DNA from: Aquimarina intermedia
Lineage (GTDB): Bacteria; Bacteroidota; Bacteroidia; Flavobacteriales; Flavobacteriaceae
NCBI RefSeq assembly: GCF_008124785.1
Contig: NZ_VNHU01000004.1
Location: 62,001-126,000 of the forward strand
Direction of reading: 5' to 3'
DNA length: 64,000 bases
Shown: positions 43,242 through 63,714 of the stretch, in pieces
Layout: every line of letters starts with the position of its first letter
How positions within the stretch are numbered: the first letter of the stretch is position 1
Notes under the pieces: model-generated
Seen by the model: the letters and a program-made list of their open reading frames with translations, nothing else
The model's database searches: none
What the model was told of the DNA's origin: nothing
Translations under genes and position numbers: made by a program

Positions 43242-44393
43242 TTAATACGTTACATATTCCATTATTTCTAAACCATAGCCTATCATTCCAACTCTTTTTT
43301 GTTGTACTGAGTTAGAGACCAAGCGAAGCTTGTGTACATTTAAGTCATGCAATATTTGAGCGCCGATACCAAAATCCTTACTATCCATTATAATTGCAGG
43401 AGCTTTCACTACCTCTTTCCCGTTTTGTAATTCCTTGAGGTCTTTCAGACGATTAAGCAGGTTGAGGGATTGACTTTCCTGATTAATAAAAATGATAACC
43501 CCCTTGCCTTCGTTATTGATACGCTGAAACATCGCATCCAAGCGCTTATCTGCATTATTAGTCAATGTACCTAAGATATCATTATTGAACAAGGTAGAGT
43601 TCACCCGTGTTAATACAGGTTCATTATCAGCCCACTGCCCTTTGGTCAATGCTATATGGATTTGATTATTAGTAGTTTGCTTATAAGCTCTGAGACGATA
43701 TTCTCCAAAACGCGTTACTATATCAAAATCTTCTTTTTTCTCAATTAGAGAATCATGTTGCATCCTATAAGCTACCAAATCCTCGATAGAAACAAGTTTA
43801 ATATCAAATTTTCTTGCTACTTCAACCAATTGTGGCAGTCTTGCCATGGTACCATCTTCATTCATAATTTCGACAATCACACCAGCAGGCTTGAGTCCTG
43901 CCAGTCTGGCAAAATCTATAGCAGCTTCTGTATGACCTGTACGACGTAACACGCCTCCTTGTTTTGCTTTTAAAGGAAAAATATGACCTGGTCTGGCAAG
44001 TTCATGAGGTTTTGTGTTAGGATTTGTTAAAGCATTCACCGTTTTTGCACGATCGCTTGCAGAAATACCTGTTGTTACTCCTTCTCCTTTCAAATCAACT
44101 GATATTGTAAAAGCCGTTTCTAAAGGATCCGTGTTATTACCAACCATCATATTCAACTTCAGCTCTTCGCAACGTTTTTCAGTTAACGGAGCACAAATAA
44201 GTCCCCTACCATGTGTTGCCATAAAATTGATCATTTCTGGTGTCACTTTTTCGGCTGCTGCCAAAAAATCCCCTTCATTCTCCCGATCTTCATCATCGAC
44301 CACTATAATAACTTTACCTTGACGGATATCATCAATGGCTTCTTGTATAGTATTCAGTTTCAATTTGGGCTTACTTTCAGTAGTTTGAGACAT
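43242..44393 (-). CDS. ribB: 3,4-dihydroxy-2-butanone 4-phosphate synthase with degenerate GTP cyclohydrolase II domain
   Basis: About 383 residues from ATG 44393 (MSQTTESKPK); an ATG nine codons upstream is also in frame. The N-terminal half is a complete RibB: VVDDEDRENEGDFL, MATHGRGLICAPL, RTGHTEAAIDFARLAGL and EIMNEDGTMAR. The C-terminal half has the RibA fold order but has lost the three zinc cysteines: the site HSEC becomes NSTL, and RCDCGFQL becomes TNNADKRL; HRQEGR is altered to INQESQ. It therefore probably makes only the four-carbon precursor of riboflavin, and a separate RibA must exist. No FMN riboswitch is seen upstream. It follows the LptF/G gene by 46 bp. Confidence 0.92.
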   Translation of the reverse strand: MSQTTESKPKLKLNTIQEAIDDIRQGKVIIVVDDEDRENEGDFLAAAEKVTPEMINFMATHGRGLICAPLTEKRCEELKLNMMVGNNTDPLETAFTISVDLKGEGVTTGISASDRAKTVNALTNPNTKPHELARPGHIFPLKAKQGGVLRRTGHTEAAIDFARLAGLKPAGVIVEIMNEDGTMARLPQLVEVARKFDIKLVSIEDLVAYRMQHDSLIEKKEDFDIVTRFGEYRLRAYKQTTNNQIHIALTKGQWADNEPVLTRVNSTLFNNDILGTLTNNADKRLDAMFQRINNEGKGVIIFINQESQSLNLLNRLKDLKELQNGKEVVKAPAIIMDSKDFGIGAQILHDLNVHKLRLVSNSVQQKRVGMIGYGLEIMEYVTY

Positions 44394-44439
44394 ACTTTTT
44401 ATCTTATGTATTCTTGGCAAAGATACCTAAACTCTCGAA

Positions 44440-57957: not shown

Positions 57958-58830
57958 CTATTTTCTTTTTTTAGTATACAACCAATAATTGATTCCTACA
58001 GACCAGTAAAAAGTGTTATTCAGGTCCTCTTTAAAAGTTTGTTCTTCTGTAGTTATAGTAGCTCTGCTTTGTGGAAACGCAAATCCTGGAGTAAATGAGA
58101 AAACAAATGACTTATAAAAATAATGGAGGGGAATACTTAATTCGTAGCTCAAAATATTGAATTTATCAACCTTCTTAATATCAACTATATAGGAGTTCAC
58201 ATCTCCACTTCCTTGCCCACCACGATTACCGTTACCCTGACGATTATTTCTGTAATACTCTTCATAAAAATACTGAGACCCAGCATACAAATTTACCGAA
58301 GGCATAATCGATAGCTTTTTACTCAACACATAAAACGTTCTATTGAGATGTAAACCAACAAAAATATCAGTACCGCTATTATTATTAAAATAACTACTTC
58401 CTGTTGCTAAGAGCTCTAAAATAGTAAAGTCGTAACCCAAACTTCCGGTAAGATCAGCTACAACCTGTGATTGTACATTGTAGCTGTCTTCATCAAAAAA
58501 ATAGGCAGTTCCAGAGATTTCGGCAGTAAATCCTTTATGAGTATATTCATACCCAGCTGTAATTAAGGAAAGGTCTACTCTACCCTCATCAGATCTTGTT
58601 AAGTAAGATAATGAAGCATTGGCATAAAAACCTGATTTGTCGTAGTACCCCACAGAAGAATAAAGATATGGTGTGGCAATAGAATCACGCCTTCCCATAA
58701 AAACAGCATCACTCATATAGCTCACGTCTAGCAATAGATATGATTTATTTTTATTTTCATCATTTTGAGAAACAGCGATAATTGGCGACACTAAAAATGC
58801 CACTGTATATAAAAACATTAGATTTCTCAT
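57958..58830 (-). CDS. Predicted outer-membrane beta-barrel protein
   Basis: 290 residues. Signal peptide (MRNLMFLYTVAFLVSPIIAVSQ). The mature protein is made of alternating hydrophobic strands ending in aromatic residues (LYSSVGYYDKSGFYANASLSYL, GYEYTHKGFTAEISGTAYFF, FYWSVGINYWLYTKKRK), with a Gly/Asn-rich loop RQGNGNRGGQGSGD near 215. I infer an outer-membrane barrel of 12 or so strands; the substrate is unknown. It lies 65 bp upstream (on the - strand, downstream) of the DUF6799-like gene. Confidence 0.75.
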   Translation of the reverse strand: MRNLMFLYTVAFLVSPIIAVSQNDENKNKSYLLLDVSYMSDAVFMGRRDSIATPYLYSSVGYYDKSGFYANASLSYLTRSDEGRVDLSLITAGYEYTHKGFTAEISGTAYFFDEDSYNVQSQVVADLTGSLGYDFTILELLATGSSYFNNNSGTDIFVGLHLNRTFYVLSKKLSIMPSVNLYAGSQYFYEEYYRNNRQGNGNRGGQGSGDVNSYIVDIKKVDKFNILSYELSIPLHYFYKSFVFSFTPGFAFPQSRATITTEEQTFKEDLNNTFYWSVGINYWLYTKKRK

Positions 58831-58895: not shown

Positions 58896-59549
58896 CTATT
58901 TAAATAGTCCTTTTTTACCTTTCTTTTTGGATACTGTAGGTTTTTTACCCCCCTTTTTCATCATTGTTTGGTTTTTAAGCAGCATTTTTCGATGCTGCTG
59001 CATATTCTGGATCTTATTCCCCTCCATATTTAAGCATTCTCCATCCTGAAGACGTAATTGTTTCCTGTCACGGTCTTGGTAACTTCCATCAGGATTTACC
59101 GTTACACCATTTGCCAGACTGAGTTGTCTTTGCAGACGGTTTTGAGATTGGTTTTTGATTTGAAGTACCTCACCATTGATGAACATAAAATGAACCCGGT
59201 TTTGATTACGCTCCTGCTTACGCGCTTCTGCCAGTCCTTTGTTTTCCTGTTTTACTTTGTACCGATATTGATATTCATTACGATATTTGATCCCATCCAT
59301 ATCGAGACATTCACCTTCTTTAAGACGCAAACGTTCTTGATTACGTGTCACATACAATCCGTCAGGATTGAGTACAGTACCATCATTTAATGTAATACTT
59401 TCTTGTAATCGCATCTGATCTTGATCCCTGATCTGTAGCATATCACCATCTACCAACATTAAACGTGTCTGATCACGATCCTGAACTTGGGCTCTTAATG
59501 CCATAGTTCCTATAAAAACTAAAGCGAAAGCCAGTACTATTTTTTTCAT
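58896..59549 (-). CDS. Secreted protein with two DUF6799-like repeats
   Basis: 217 residues from ATG 59549 (MKKIVLAFALVFIGTMALRAQ, signal peptide); an upstream in-frame ATG at 59621 would precede the signal peptide and is rejected. Two repeats, about 30-85 and 120-180, share the pattern '...L.dG..l.i.nqdq.RLq..i.L.nG..vnPDG.Y..r...RL.l.eGEcl.mdG.k', e.g. TLNDGTVLNPDGLY and SLANGVTVNPDGSY. The C-terminus is Lys-rich (KKGGKKPTVSKKKGKKG). A TGA-N6-TCA site (59605-59616) lies upstream. Function unknown. Confidence 0.75.
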   Translation of the reverse strand: MKKIVLAFALVFIGTMALRAQVQDRDQTRLMLVDGDMLQIRDQDQMRLQESITLNDGTVLNPDGLYVTRNQERLRLKEGECLDMDGIKYRNEYQYRYKVKQENKGLAEARKQERNQNRVHFMFINGEVLQIKNQSQNRLQRQLSLANGVTVNPDGSYQDRDRKQLRLQDGECLNMEGNKIQNMQQHRKMLLKNQTMMKKGGKKPTVSKKKGKKGLFK

Positions 59550-59573
59550 AATCTTTATATTTTTGAATTCTTT

Positions 59574-59616
59574 GTAATATATACTGTAGAACATTAAAAA
59601 ATAATGACATTGATCA
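59574..59616 (-). promoter_or_regulatory. Probable CRP/FNR-type promoter of the DUF6799-like gene
   Basis: TGACATTGATCA at 59605-59616 fits TGA-N6-TCA. At the expected 33-bp spacing the reverse strand reads TATATTAC, only 6 of 8 matches to TAnnTTTG. This is the weakest member of the set. Confidence 0.45.
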
Positions 59617-59736
59617 TTCAATATACTTTTTCCGACACTTTAAGGAGTAGAATCAATCTCTACTCATTACCCATTTTTCCATGAATAAGTGCCGCAAAGA
59701 AAAACTGGATTTTTTAAGCATGAATAACCTACCGCA

Positions 59737-60095: not shown

Positions 60096-61472
60096 TCAGA
60101 AATTATAATTGGTTATAAAATTAATTTGATGATAATTACTTCTATTAAAAATTACAGCTGGATCATTATTGTTAACATTCTTTTTATAGACATATAAAAT
60201 ATCAAAATTGAGTCCGTCAAAAAATCCTTGAAGACCTTAATGAAAGCGAGAATTCACCTGATAATACGCATCGAGATTATACTTATTGTTTTCAAATTCA
60301 TTCACTGTTGCCCCAAAAAGTCGCGTAAATTTTAATTCCATAGTACATCTGTCAGGTTTAAAATCATAACTTCCTCCTAAGGTTAAAACAGTTACATTTC
60401 CAAAACCATCCATACGTGATCTTGAAATTGAGGTAAATAATTGGTCTCTTCCCAGCTCTCGCGGAGAAAGAAACCTACCCGTATCAAACGCATGAGTAAA
60501 CGCTGCACTAAGTTTCATCTTAGTAAATTTATATTGTAATTGTGTGCTCAAAACTTGGCCATTTTCTGTATCCTGAATATATCTTTCATTATATGCCAAT
60601 TTCATTTGATAATCCAAAGGGAATTGAAGTGCATATTGAACACCCATATTCCAGTTTTTAAATAAATAATCAATTTGTAACCAAGATGTATTGATTATTC
60701 TATCTAAATGCACATTGTAAAAATGAAAAGTCCAATCTTTCACATTTCCAGAATAATTAAAAATTCCAATCCCTCTAGAATTTGTATTTTCATGATACTG
60801 CGCGACCTCCCCATTAGGTTGGAAGCCATTGTTGGTAAGTCCTATAGCCTCATTGAAATCATACCATTCTACCGTACTTCGCGGTGAAACACGATCCAGC
60901 CAACTAAGATTAAAATGATGTCCGTCCATCAATTCATAATTTAGCCACAAGCCTTTAAAAACAAAAGGTTTCATCCTGCCGTCACTTTCGTTTAGTAAAG
61001 GCGTATCTTCAATCTCCAGTTTTCCGTAGGTGAGATAACCGCGCCCAAAATTATACTTTAAATATAATTCTTCTAATCGATCCAGATCATTAAAATTATC
61101 AAAGTCATTGATATCATACAGTTCGTGTTCCCATTTTGAAATTCTTCCGGTTGTAGCATCTGGCTTATTCAAGGCTGATGAAAAAGTCTGATAGGTAAAT
61201 ATACCTTTGACCCCTAACTCAAATCCTTTAAATTCTTTAGTCTTAATTGCAATAGAACCACCTGTGGCGTTCGTATAATAGTCTTTTAAGCTATTTTGAT
61301 TACTAGTACTCATAAAGAAATTGCGAATATGACCTTCTAAATGAGCTTCTGTAAAGATTTCTTTTAAAGATGTGATCTTGTCATTATCATTAAAATTATG
61401 GCTTTGTGAATACATATTAGAACAACTTAGAAAACTTAAGAGTAAAAAAATGAAGTTTTTAATGTTTAGCAT
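60096..61472 (-). pseudogene. OprD-like outer-membrane porin with a premature stop
   Basis: From ATG 61472 a 411-codon frame reads a signal peptide (MLNIKNFIFLLLSFLSCSNMYSQ) and an OprD-like barrel (HLEGHIRNFFMSTSNQNSLKDYY, ATGGSIAIKTKEFKGFELGV, ELYLKYNFGRGYLTYGKLEI). It ends at TAA 60239-60237 after VNSRFH. Past this codon the same frame goes on for 46 codons (GLQGFFDGLNFDILYVYKKN ... NFITNYNF) to TGA at 60098-60096. The extension is strand-like and ends in Phe, as outer-membrane barrels do. I conclude that one nonsense change removes the last two or three strands. Confidence 0.82.
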
Positions 61473-61793: not shown

Positions 61794-62801
61794 TTAACCC
61801 CCTATCGCGATCATACTCCGGTTATTATGAAATGCAGGGTCTTTAAATTTTTGAAGTGTATCCATCCCGTTACGTGTGTTTTTCTTTGCGAGCACTGCTT
61901 TTTTAATGACAGCTGCTATTGGATTTCCATTACGAAGTGGTGTCAATACATCAGACTCTGTAGTTGAAAATAAACAATTTTTGAGGTGTCCATTGGCTGT
62001 TAGTCGTATTCTATTACAACTATCGCAAAAAGGATTTGTTACAGAACTGATGATTGCAAACGTACCTTTATAGCCTTTAATTTGATAGTTTTTGGCGGTG
62101 TCATTTGGTTTATCGTTTAGCCTAATAAAATCAGAAATGTCATAACGATTATATACTTGTTTCAATATATCTTCAAGAGAAACGAGCTTTTCCATATTCC
62201 ATTTATTGCCATCAAATGGCATAAATTCAATAAATCTAATTTGCAATGGTTGTTTCTTAGTTAATGCTATAAAATCAACGATTTCGTTATCATTAAAGCC
62301 TTTCATCAAGACGCAATTCAGCTTCACTTCAAATCCTTCTTTTAGTAATAACTGAATGTTATTATACACTTTTGTGAAATAATCGCGTCGTGTAATTGAC
62401 TTATTCTTACTAGCACTCAATGAATCTAAGCTTATATTAACGGTTTTAATCCCACATTTTTTGAATGTTTCTATAAATCTATCTACAAGGACACCATTAG
62501 TAGTAATTGCTAATTCTATAGGAAGTGTTGCCAGCTTTTCCATAATCAATGCAGCATCTTTCCTCACTAATGGTTCGCCACCAGTAAGTCTTATTTTGGT
62601 AACACCATTAGCTACAAATTCTTTGGCGATGGTATAGATTTCCTCATAAGTCATAATATGAGACTTAGGGGAAAGCGTTATACCAGCTGCTGGCATACAA
62701 TATGTACATCGCAAATTGCAACGTTCGGTAAGTGAGATACGCAGGTAGTTATGTTCGCGGCCAAAAGTATCTGTAAGTATGCTTTTTTTTTCGTTTTTCA
62801 T
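61794..62801 (-). CDS. moaA: GTP 3',8-cyclase MoaA
   Basis: 335 residues from ATG 62801 (MKNEKKSILTDTFGREHNYL); an upstream frame of 28 codons inside the preceding gene is rejected since the family starts here. The radical-SAM cluster is TERCNLRCTYCMPAAG; the second C-terminal cluster is NPFCDSCNRIRLTANGHLKNC. The C-terminus ends in GG (SMIAIGG), which is essential in MoaA. It forms the first step of molybdopterin synthesis from GTP. It begins 1 bp after the moaC-mogA stop. Confidence 0.95.
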   Translation of the reverse strand: MKNEKKSILTDTFGREHNYLRISLTERCNLRCTYCMPAAGITLSPKSHIMTYEEIYTIAKEFVANGVTKIRLTGGEPLVRKDAALIMEKLATLPIELAITTNGVLVDRFIETFKKCGIKTVNISLDSLSASKNKSITRRDYFTKVYNNIQLLLKEGFEVKLNCVLMKGFNDNEIVDFIALTKKQPLQIRFIEFMPFDGNKWNMEKLVSLEDILKQVYNRYDISDFIRLNDKPNDTAKNYQIKGYKGTFAIISSVTNPFCDSCNRIRLTANGHLKNCLFSTTESDVLTPLRNGNPIAAVIKKAVLAKKNTRNGMDTLQKFKDPAFHNNRSMIAIGG

Positions 62802-62802
62802 A

Positions 62803-63714
62803 TTAATTGTGTCTTGCGCCTTTGAGAATTCCAAAAACGTGTAAAAGGGAAGGAAAGATAGCATCCATCGACTCTCTTGCTCCATTGGTAGATCCTGGCA
62901 ATGCGAGAACTAGCGAATTTTTTATTGTTCCTGCTACACTTCTAGACAACATAGCATAAGGCATACGATCTTGACCATATTTTCTTATTGTTTCTTCTAT
63001 TCCAGGTATGGTTCTATCGAGTAATGGTTTCAGTGCTTCTGGTGTCACATCCCTTTGAGATAAACCAGTTCCGCCAGTATAAATTATCAAATCTGCCCCT
63101 TGAGATTGATAGTATTTTGCTTTTTCCTGAATGATTGCAATTTCGTCTGGAATACTAATGTAATCTAGTATAGCTACATCGCTGGTTTCTAATTTTGCTA
63201 TAATCGCTTTTCCTGCTTTATCTTGTTTTTCACCTGCAGAAATAGAATCTGAACAGACAATAACAGCCGCTTTTAAATCACGTCCAAATTTGTCCTTAAA
63301 ACCAGACTTACCTCCTGTTTTCTCGATGAGTTTTATATGATGAATTTCGATGCCTTTATCAATAGGTTTCAACATATCATACATATTAAGAGCAACCACA
63401 CTTGCACCATGCATTGCTTCTACCTCCACACCCGTTTTATAAATGGTTTTTACGGTTATCAATACTTTAATTTCTAATTCATCAATTATGAAATCAATTC
63501 CTGTATATTCAATAGGCAACGGATGGCAATCCGGAAGCAACTCTGGTGTTTTTTTTACTCCGAGTAATCCAGCTGCCTTACTCATAGCAAACACATCACC
63601 CTTGGGCACCGTTTTGTTCTCAAGAGCCGTAATCGTATTTTGACTACTTACCTTTACAATAGCTTGCGCTGTTGCTGTACGCAACGTAGTATTCTTATGT
63701 GTGATATCTACCAT
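62803..63714 (-). CDS. moaCB: Fused MoaC-MogA/MoaB molybdopterin biosynthesis protein
   Basis: 303 residues. N-terminal MoaC (cyclic pyranopterin monophosphate synthase): VDITHKNTTLRTATAQA, KGDVFAMSKAAGLLGVKKTPELLPDCHPLPI, VEVEAMHGASVVALNMYDMLKPIDKGIEI. From ~145 a MogA/MoaB-type adenylyltransferase: AVIVCSDSISAGEKQDKAG, IIYTGGTGLSQRDVTPEAL and LALPGSTNGARESMDAIFPSL. The MoaC-MoaB fusion is known in Bacteroidota. The neighbour moaA uses the same strand, 1 bp away. Molybdenum enzymes must occur elsewhere in the genome. Confidence 0.93.
   Translation of the reverse strand: MVDITHKNTTLRTATAQAIVKVSSQNTITALENKTVPKGDVFAMSKAAGLLGVKKTPELLPDCHPLPIEYTGIDFIIDELEIKVLITVKTIYKTGVEVEAMHGASVVALNMYDMLKPIDKGIEIHHIKLIEKTGGKSGFKDKFGRDLKAAVIVCSDSISAGEKQDKAGKAIIAKLETSDVAILDYISIPDEIAIIQEKAKYYQSQGADLIIYTGGTGLSQRDVTPEALKPLLDRTIPGIEETIRKYGQDRMPYAMLSRSVAGTIKNSLVLALPGSTNGARESMDAIFPSLLHVFGILKGARHN

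Follow-up and report, generated by a model that had tools for sequence, protein, structure and literature searches.

Porins of the OprD (Occ) family form barrels of 18 strands, have a C-terminal strand that ends in an aromatic residue, and act as channels for small anions such as carboxylates. Judged by the example of Pseudomonas aeruginosa, inactivation of a porin by a premature stop is a well-known kind of event: the consulted part of one report counts 605 genomes of that species with presumptively inactivated OprD, with 150 premature stops and 297 frameshifts (PMC10100854). On the assembly of such proteins, the excerpts consulted state that the final strand holds a signal that engages the BAM machinery and that internal strands hold more signals (PMC10945584), and that deleting or substituting the C-terminal residue impairs the biogenesis and assembly of outer membrane proteins, with insertion of mutant porins lacking this residue still seen at low concentration (PMC3582582).

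Here, we describe an event of the same kind in the window, i.e., the whole stretch of 64,000 nucleotides of DNA from Aquimarina intermedia (Flavobacteriaceae) that was analyzed. It differs from the loss of OprD in P. aeruginosa, which is tied to carbapenem resistance in many isolates, in that it concerns one genome and another subfamily, with no known selection. We favor, with a probability of about 0.83, the reading that a porin gene of the OprD/Occ type, itself probably acquired, was recently hit by a nonsense mutation and that this pore was thereby lost.

The interrupted frame and the predicted barrel

The features of the locus are collected in the table. The open reading frame runs from an ATG at 61472 to the TAA, and the last residue of its product is His 411. 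Past this stop, another 46 codons can be read in the same frame before a TGA closes it, and the encoded tail ends in TNYNF, so that the terminal Phe sits behind the stop. This arrangement, as proposed in the first-pass annotation, was confirmed by the open reading frame and its translation. Reading the frame to the TGA revealed no further stop; the 46-residue tail contained no Met that could serve as a restart, and no long homopolymer was found at the TAA. A changed code for this codon was ruled out, as TAA terminates 40 of the 54 open reading frames surveyed in the window.

Table. Features of the porin locus and of the genes next upstream, in window coordinates
Feature	Position	Strand	Basis
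Truncated OprD-like porin ORF, 411 aa; signal-peptide-like N-terminus at about residues 1-23 (by eye)	60237..61472	-	ORF; Pfam OprD, 34.1 bits
Premature TAA	60237..60239	-	Residue in 37 intact orthologues: Tyr 33, Phe 2, Trp 1, Ile 1
46-codon tail, homologous to barrel strands 17 and 18 plus terminal Phe	60099..60236	-	Profile match, 65.8 bits; tail identity equal to body identity; strand mapping
TGA stop, at the endpoint of intact orthologues	60096..60098	-	Frame; orthologue alignment
moaA-like gene, next upstream of the porin, gap of about 320 bp	61794..62885	-	Pfam Radical_SAM and Mob_synth_C
MoaC and MoCF_biosynth fusion ORF	62803..63714	-	Pfam

The open length past the stop is, on its own, weak evidence of former coding, because at least 46 open codons lie behind the stop in seven of the 54 surveyed frames. 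Five of the other six extensions agreed in length and position in the table of open reading frames with the next gene in the same frame, and the sixth, of 73 codons behind 43242-44420, was translated and judged non-coding by eye. The tail was also compared alone with a profile built from five intact orthologues, and it matched the last 45 positions (411-455 of 455) with an E-value of 1.5e-22 for one sequence. It is this homology, as read from the sequence, and not the open length that lifts the porin case above chance. The earlier description of the tail as strand-like sequence is supported by the profile match and by the mapping to strands 17 and 18.

The window frame matched the Pfam OprD family (PF03573) at 2e-8, above the cut-off of 25 bits, and no second OprD match was found in the genome (3.49 Mb, 29 contigs) with either the protein's own sequence or the Pfam profile. 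A structure was predicted from a 32-row alignment with the Muriicola jejuensis orthologue (L034) as the first row, giving a mean pLDDT of 90.1, a pTM of 0.84, and 18 strands. When this model was searched against the PDB with Foldseek, OpdK/OccK1, OpdO, OccAB4, and other Occ porins ranked first, and the best match was OpdK (E 1.7e-20, TM 0.65/0.76). The likeness to the described OprD/Occ porins (PF03573; OpdK/OccK1, OpdO/OccK3, OpdP/OccD3) lies in the Pfam score and in the predicted 18-strand barrel of the intact orthologue, along with a profile match to OpdP (3syb) across a 62-position stretch (3.8e-5). In contrast, identity in the structural alignments of the intact orthologue was only about 11-17%, the clade described here belongs to Bacteroidota, and the window copy is without strands 17 and 18.

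The stop aligns with residue 404 of the 450 in L034, at the end of strand 16 (395-405), and strands 17 (413-424) and 18 (439-449) lie past it. By prediction only, the stop would remove these two strands and the terminal Phe, and the product would reach strand 16 at most; the loss of the C-terminal strands and the terminal aromatic residue, already proposed from the translation, follows from this model. The gene is accordingly placed by profile and model in the OprD family, and its present product, with strands 17 and 18 and the terminal aromatic predicted to be absent, would not be a whole member. The model of the truncated protein itself had a mean pLDDT of 63, and was built from 6 rows against the 32 used for the intact orthologue, so its poor confidence says little.

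Orthologues, constraint, and the nature of the stop

The alignment of intact close orthologues held 37 rows, i.e., 36 of 80 named loci plus L025. Excluded from it were L055, whose coordinates, identity, and scores equal those of L054; L063, which is cut by a contig end; three broken copies (L041, L064, and L074); and a further 39 loci, mostly more distant. The intact orthologues from M. jejuensis, M. marianensis, Allomuricauda profundi, Salegentibacter, and Galbibacter marinus shared 46-60% identity with the window protein in the best segment and the same protein end, and differ from it in being full length. The truncation called in the first-pass annotation was examined against the endpoints of these proteins: Phe is the last residue in 36 of the 37, the remaining one closes with Phe-Asn, and none ends at the residue where the window copy stops. 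A single base change, as first suggested, stands as the simplest reading, with the stop aligned to Tyr in most rows, no change of frame, and a tail that still matches.

Relaxed constraint or drift behind the stop was looked for in the aligned columns and in tail identity, and none was found. In leave-one-out comparisons, the window sequence departed from none of the 35 columns that are invariant in the other rows and from 4 of the 100 that reach 90% conservation, which places it at rank 12 of 38; in the same test, other rows departed from as many as 5 of 40 and 24 of 104 columns. Its mean identity to the other rows was 0.52 in both the body and the tail, and its tail-to-body ratio ranked 34 of 38 from the low end. 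In the tree, the window porin joined a supported group of 16 (97/95) that includes Muriicola, Allomuricauda, and Robiginitalea; the end branch of the window porin (0.45) was longer than the median of 0.2 and shorter than those of several intact rows. Because there is no drift behind the stop and no other decay, the stop appears to be recent, specific to the strain or, less likely, an error. Taken as sequence, the mutation follows the pattern of a pseudogene, with a homologous in-frame tail and orthologues that do not end there, and the marks of an old pseudogene are absent.

A body and tail that look constrained would also suit a minority variant, or a sequencing or assembly error that hides an intact porin; the frame is free of other lesions and looks under purifying selection over its whole length and tail. 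We consider such an error unlikely, however: the assembly, of 29 contigs, was scored 99.98% complete, the site has no long homopolymer, and substitution errors in such assemblies are generally rare. A conserved body could likewise be claimed for a shortened protein that still works, either as an adapted barrel with fewer strands or through read-through that yields some full-length product, and internal assembly signals are known from the part of PMC10945584 consulted. This is highly improbable, as none of the intact orthologues ends at that residue, the tail has been retained, two closing strands would be lost, TAA is the terminator of most surveyed frames in the window, and the tail offers no Met for a restart.

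Under the preferred reading of a recent nonsense mutation, the 411-residue product could not close the barrel and would probably be degraded in the periplasm, because two strands are missing, and the strain would be left without this pore. The product would also be without the C-terminal β-signal used by the BAM machinery, and we infer that it is non-functional. Since insertion at a low level (PMC3582582) and internal assembly signals (PMC10945584) are reported in the excerpts of these sources, partial assembly of the truncated porin is conceivable by analogy.

Gene neighborhood and distribution of the porin

The porin is the last gene of a run that combines sulfite-oxidase-like, SQR-like, and molybdenum-cofactor genes and that passes the right end of the window. 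Upstream of the porin, on the same strand, lie moaA, the moaC-MoCF fusion, moaE, a ThiF/rhodanese gene, a TauE-like exporter, and moeA; the run continues with a gene of the fatty-acid-hydroxylase family, a rhodanese, a 158-aa open reading frame without a Pfam match, and a sulfite-oxidase-like molybdoenzyme, and further on with an SQR-like flavoprotein, an amino-acid racemase, a small rhodanese, and a metallo-beta-lactamase/rhodanese fusion. The labels 'sulfite oxidase', 'SQR', and 'persulfide dioxygenase' were assigned here from domains, and the SQR-like flavoprotein was closest to type III sulfide:quinone reductase with 221.6 bits, below the model cut-off of 525. As mechanically listed, the moaC-MoCF and moaA frames overlap by 83 bases. 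On the other side, a 290-aa frame without a Pfam match (57958-58830) adjoins a DUF6799 protein (58896-59621), and relatives of the latter were seen near the sulfite-oxidase-like cluster in three of the five genus relatives fetched (L155, L157, and L158). Promoters of Bacteroidota differ from the sigma-70 type; a sigma-70 scan returned 18 sites against 12.2 expected (sd 3.1) and was not used.

Within the genus, the porin was detected in only one of 66 genomes, that of the window, and a YeeE half and the sulfite-oxidase-like gene were present in 50 and 13 of them, respectively. Because of this distribution, the porin was probably acquired by this genome; loss in the other 65 remains the alternative. 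For five of the 12 other genus genomes with the sulfite-oxidase-like gene, the surroundings were examined: the stretches covered contained no porin, and likewise no cofactor genes beside the sulfite-oxidase-like cluster. The genome's own pair of Sulf_transp (YeeE-like) frames is intact and located elsewhere (G000:C4:51856-52831), with no porin between its halves.

In wider samples, the porin was found in 19 of 299 genomes of the family draw at E-values up to 0.001, of which three were weak matches (4e-4 to 7e-4), and in 27 of 395 genomes of the order draw with the alignment as query. A query of the species-level genome collection with the single protein returned no relatives; with the alignment, it returned 110, of which 80 were analyzed. 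Plasmid records gave seven porin matches with 28-33% identity. Two diverged copies were present on different contigs of Salegentibacter salinarum (L056 and L059).

The sulfur-linked clade and its broken members

At least one of YeeE half 1, YeeE half 2, persulfide dioxygenase (PDO), and SQR was found within at most 4 kb on each side of the porin in 51 of the 80 named loci. In 15 loci (13 of the 80, plus G208 and G237), the two YeeE halves flank the porin; this is the case for the copy of G. marinus, unlike that of the window. Among the loci nearest to the window, L032-L040, L042, L043, L047, L049, and L066 had none of the four genes in their flanks, and L041 and L051 had at least one. For most of the closest orthologues, from Muriicola, Allomuricauda, and Robiginitalea, the flanks examined contained neither SQR nor persulfide dioxygenase nor a YeeE half. 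Ten flanking frames from five unlinked loci encoded an RND pump, an ABC transporter, a TauE-like exporter, a trypsin-like protease, a Na/H exchanger, a HAD protein, an AraC regulator, a sugar transporter, a Kdo transferase, and one protein without a match; in L035 and L036, a TauE-like gene lies directly upstream of the porin. These neighborhoods suggest a sulfur role for the porin clade, least so for the nearest kin of the window copy, and the lack of adjoining sulfur genes in most of the closest orthologues weakens a direct substrate link. From the gene neighbors, the intact pore might admit small anions to the periplasm, sulfur anions perhaps among them, for use in sulfide or sulfite oxidation, and its loss would lower the uptake of such a solute.

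A block of an SQR-like gene, YeeE half 1, the porin, and YeeE half 2 was observed at L054 2041-5718, L057 2104-5781, L060 339-3348, and L085 2041-5718, in hosts of different families (G. marinus, with a partial SQR, Sphingobacterium wenxiniae, Empedobacter tilapiae, and a Flavobacteriaceae isolate). The end branches of these porins were just 0.01-0.05 long. As the same block occurs in different families with such short branches, recent horizontal transfer of the block is likely. In G095 (G. marinus; L026 6825-8140), a CydA-like gene matched in two overlapping pieces, possibly a frameshift.

Breaks were surveyed in 85 loci (the 80 named plus L025, L027, and L114-L116), where 79 porins were intact, one was cut by a contig end, and five were broken: L041 (Robertkochia sp.), L064 (Salinimicrobium marinum), L074 (Moheibacter lacus), L027 (G237), and L116 (G387). 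The relative in G387 has one in-frame TGA, which may be a break or a code difference, and that of G237 (L027 9178-11504) has a stop and a frameshift and adjoins a YeeE half 1 with a stop near its start. The neighboring genes of these loci, under the same test, gave 123 intact and 2 broken (n = 125), the latter being the SQR of L060 and YeeE half 2 of L074; YeeE half 1 of L027 passed as intact by the coverage rule despite its stop. Set aside as cut by the end of a stretch were one porin, one YeeE half 1, two YeeE half 2, 15 PDO, one CydA, and one CydB; the count also leaves out four PDO hits that were partial, covering just the rhodanese part. The difference between porins and neighbors was not significant (Fisher p 0.12, or 0.064 when the window is added), and a higher breakage of the porin clade is a lead, not a result.

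This lead bears on whether the loss was adaptive, with the clade recurrently inactivated because, for example, phages or toxic solutes use the pore. Such a process would be compatible with a recent loss in the window, and five of the 85 loci carry a broken porin besides it. Nevertheless, we regard it as quite improbable, given the test against the neighbors, the stopped YeeE half of G237, which points to general decay there, and the fact that the surveyed genomes are mostly drafts. A broader proposal joins these observations: an undescribed OprD-type clade of Bacteroidota for sulfur anions, moving horizontally with YeeE halves across families and repeatedly gained and broken. In this reading, the member seen here would have been gained next to the sulfite-oxidase/molybdenum-cofactor run, away from the YeeE pair of the genome itself, and lost afterwards. 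We offer the proposal tentatively, as it is rather unlikely. Among the titles and abstract openings listed in the literature searches, none linked OprD-type porins of Bacteroidota to YeeE or sulfur oxidation, a result that speaks for those titles and openings and not for absence from print.

Taken alone, the mutation would be an ordinary loss of function, useful mainly for correct annotation. The truncation also points to a Bacteroidota OprD-type clade that is often near SQR-like, persulfide-dioxygenase-like, and YeeE-type transporter genes, and such a context would hint at the way in which substrates for sulfur oxidation cross the outer membrane of these bacteria.
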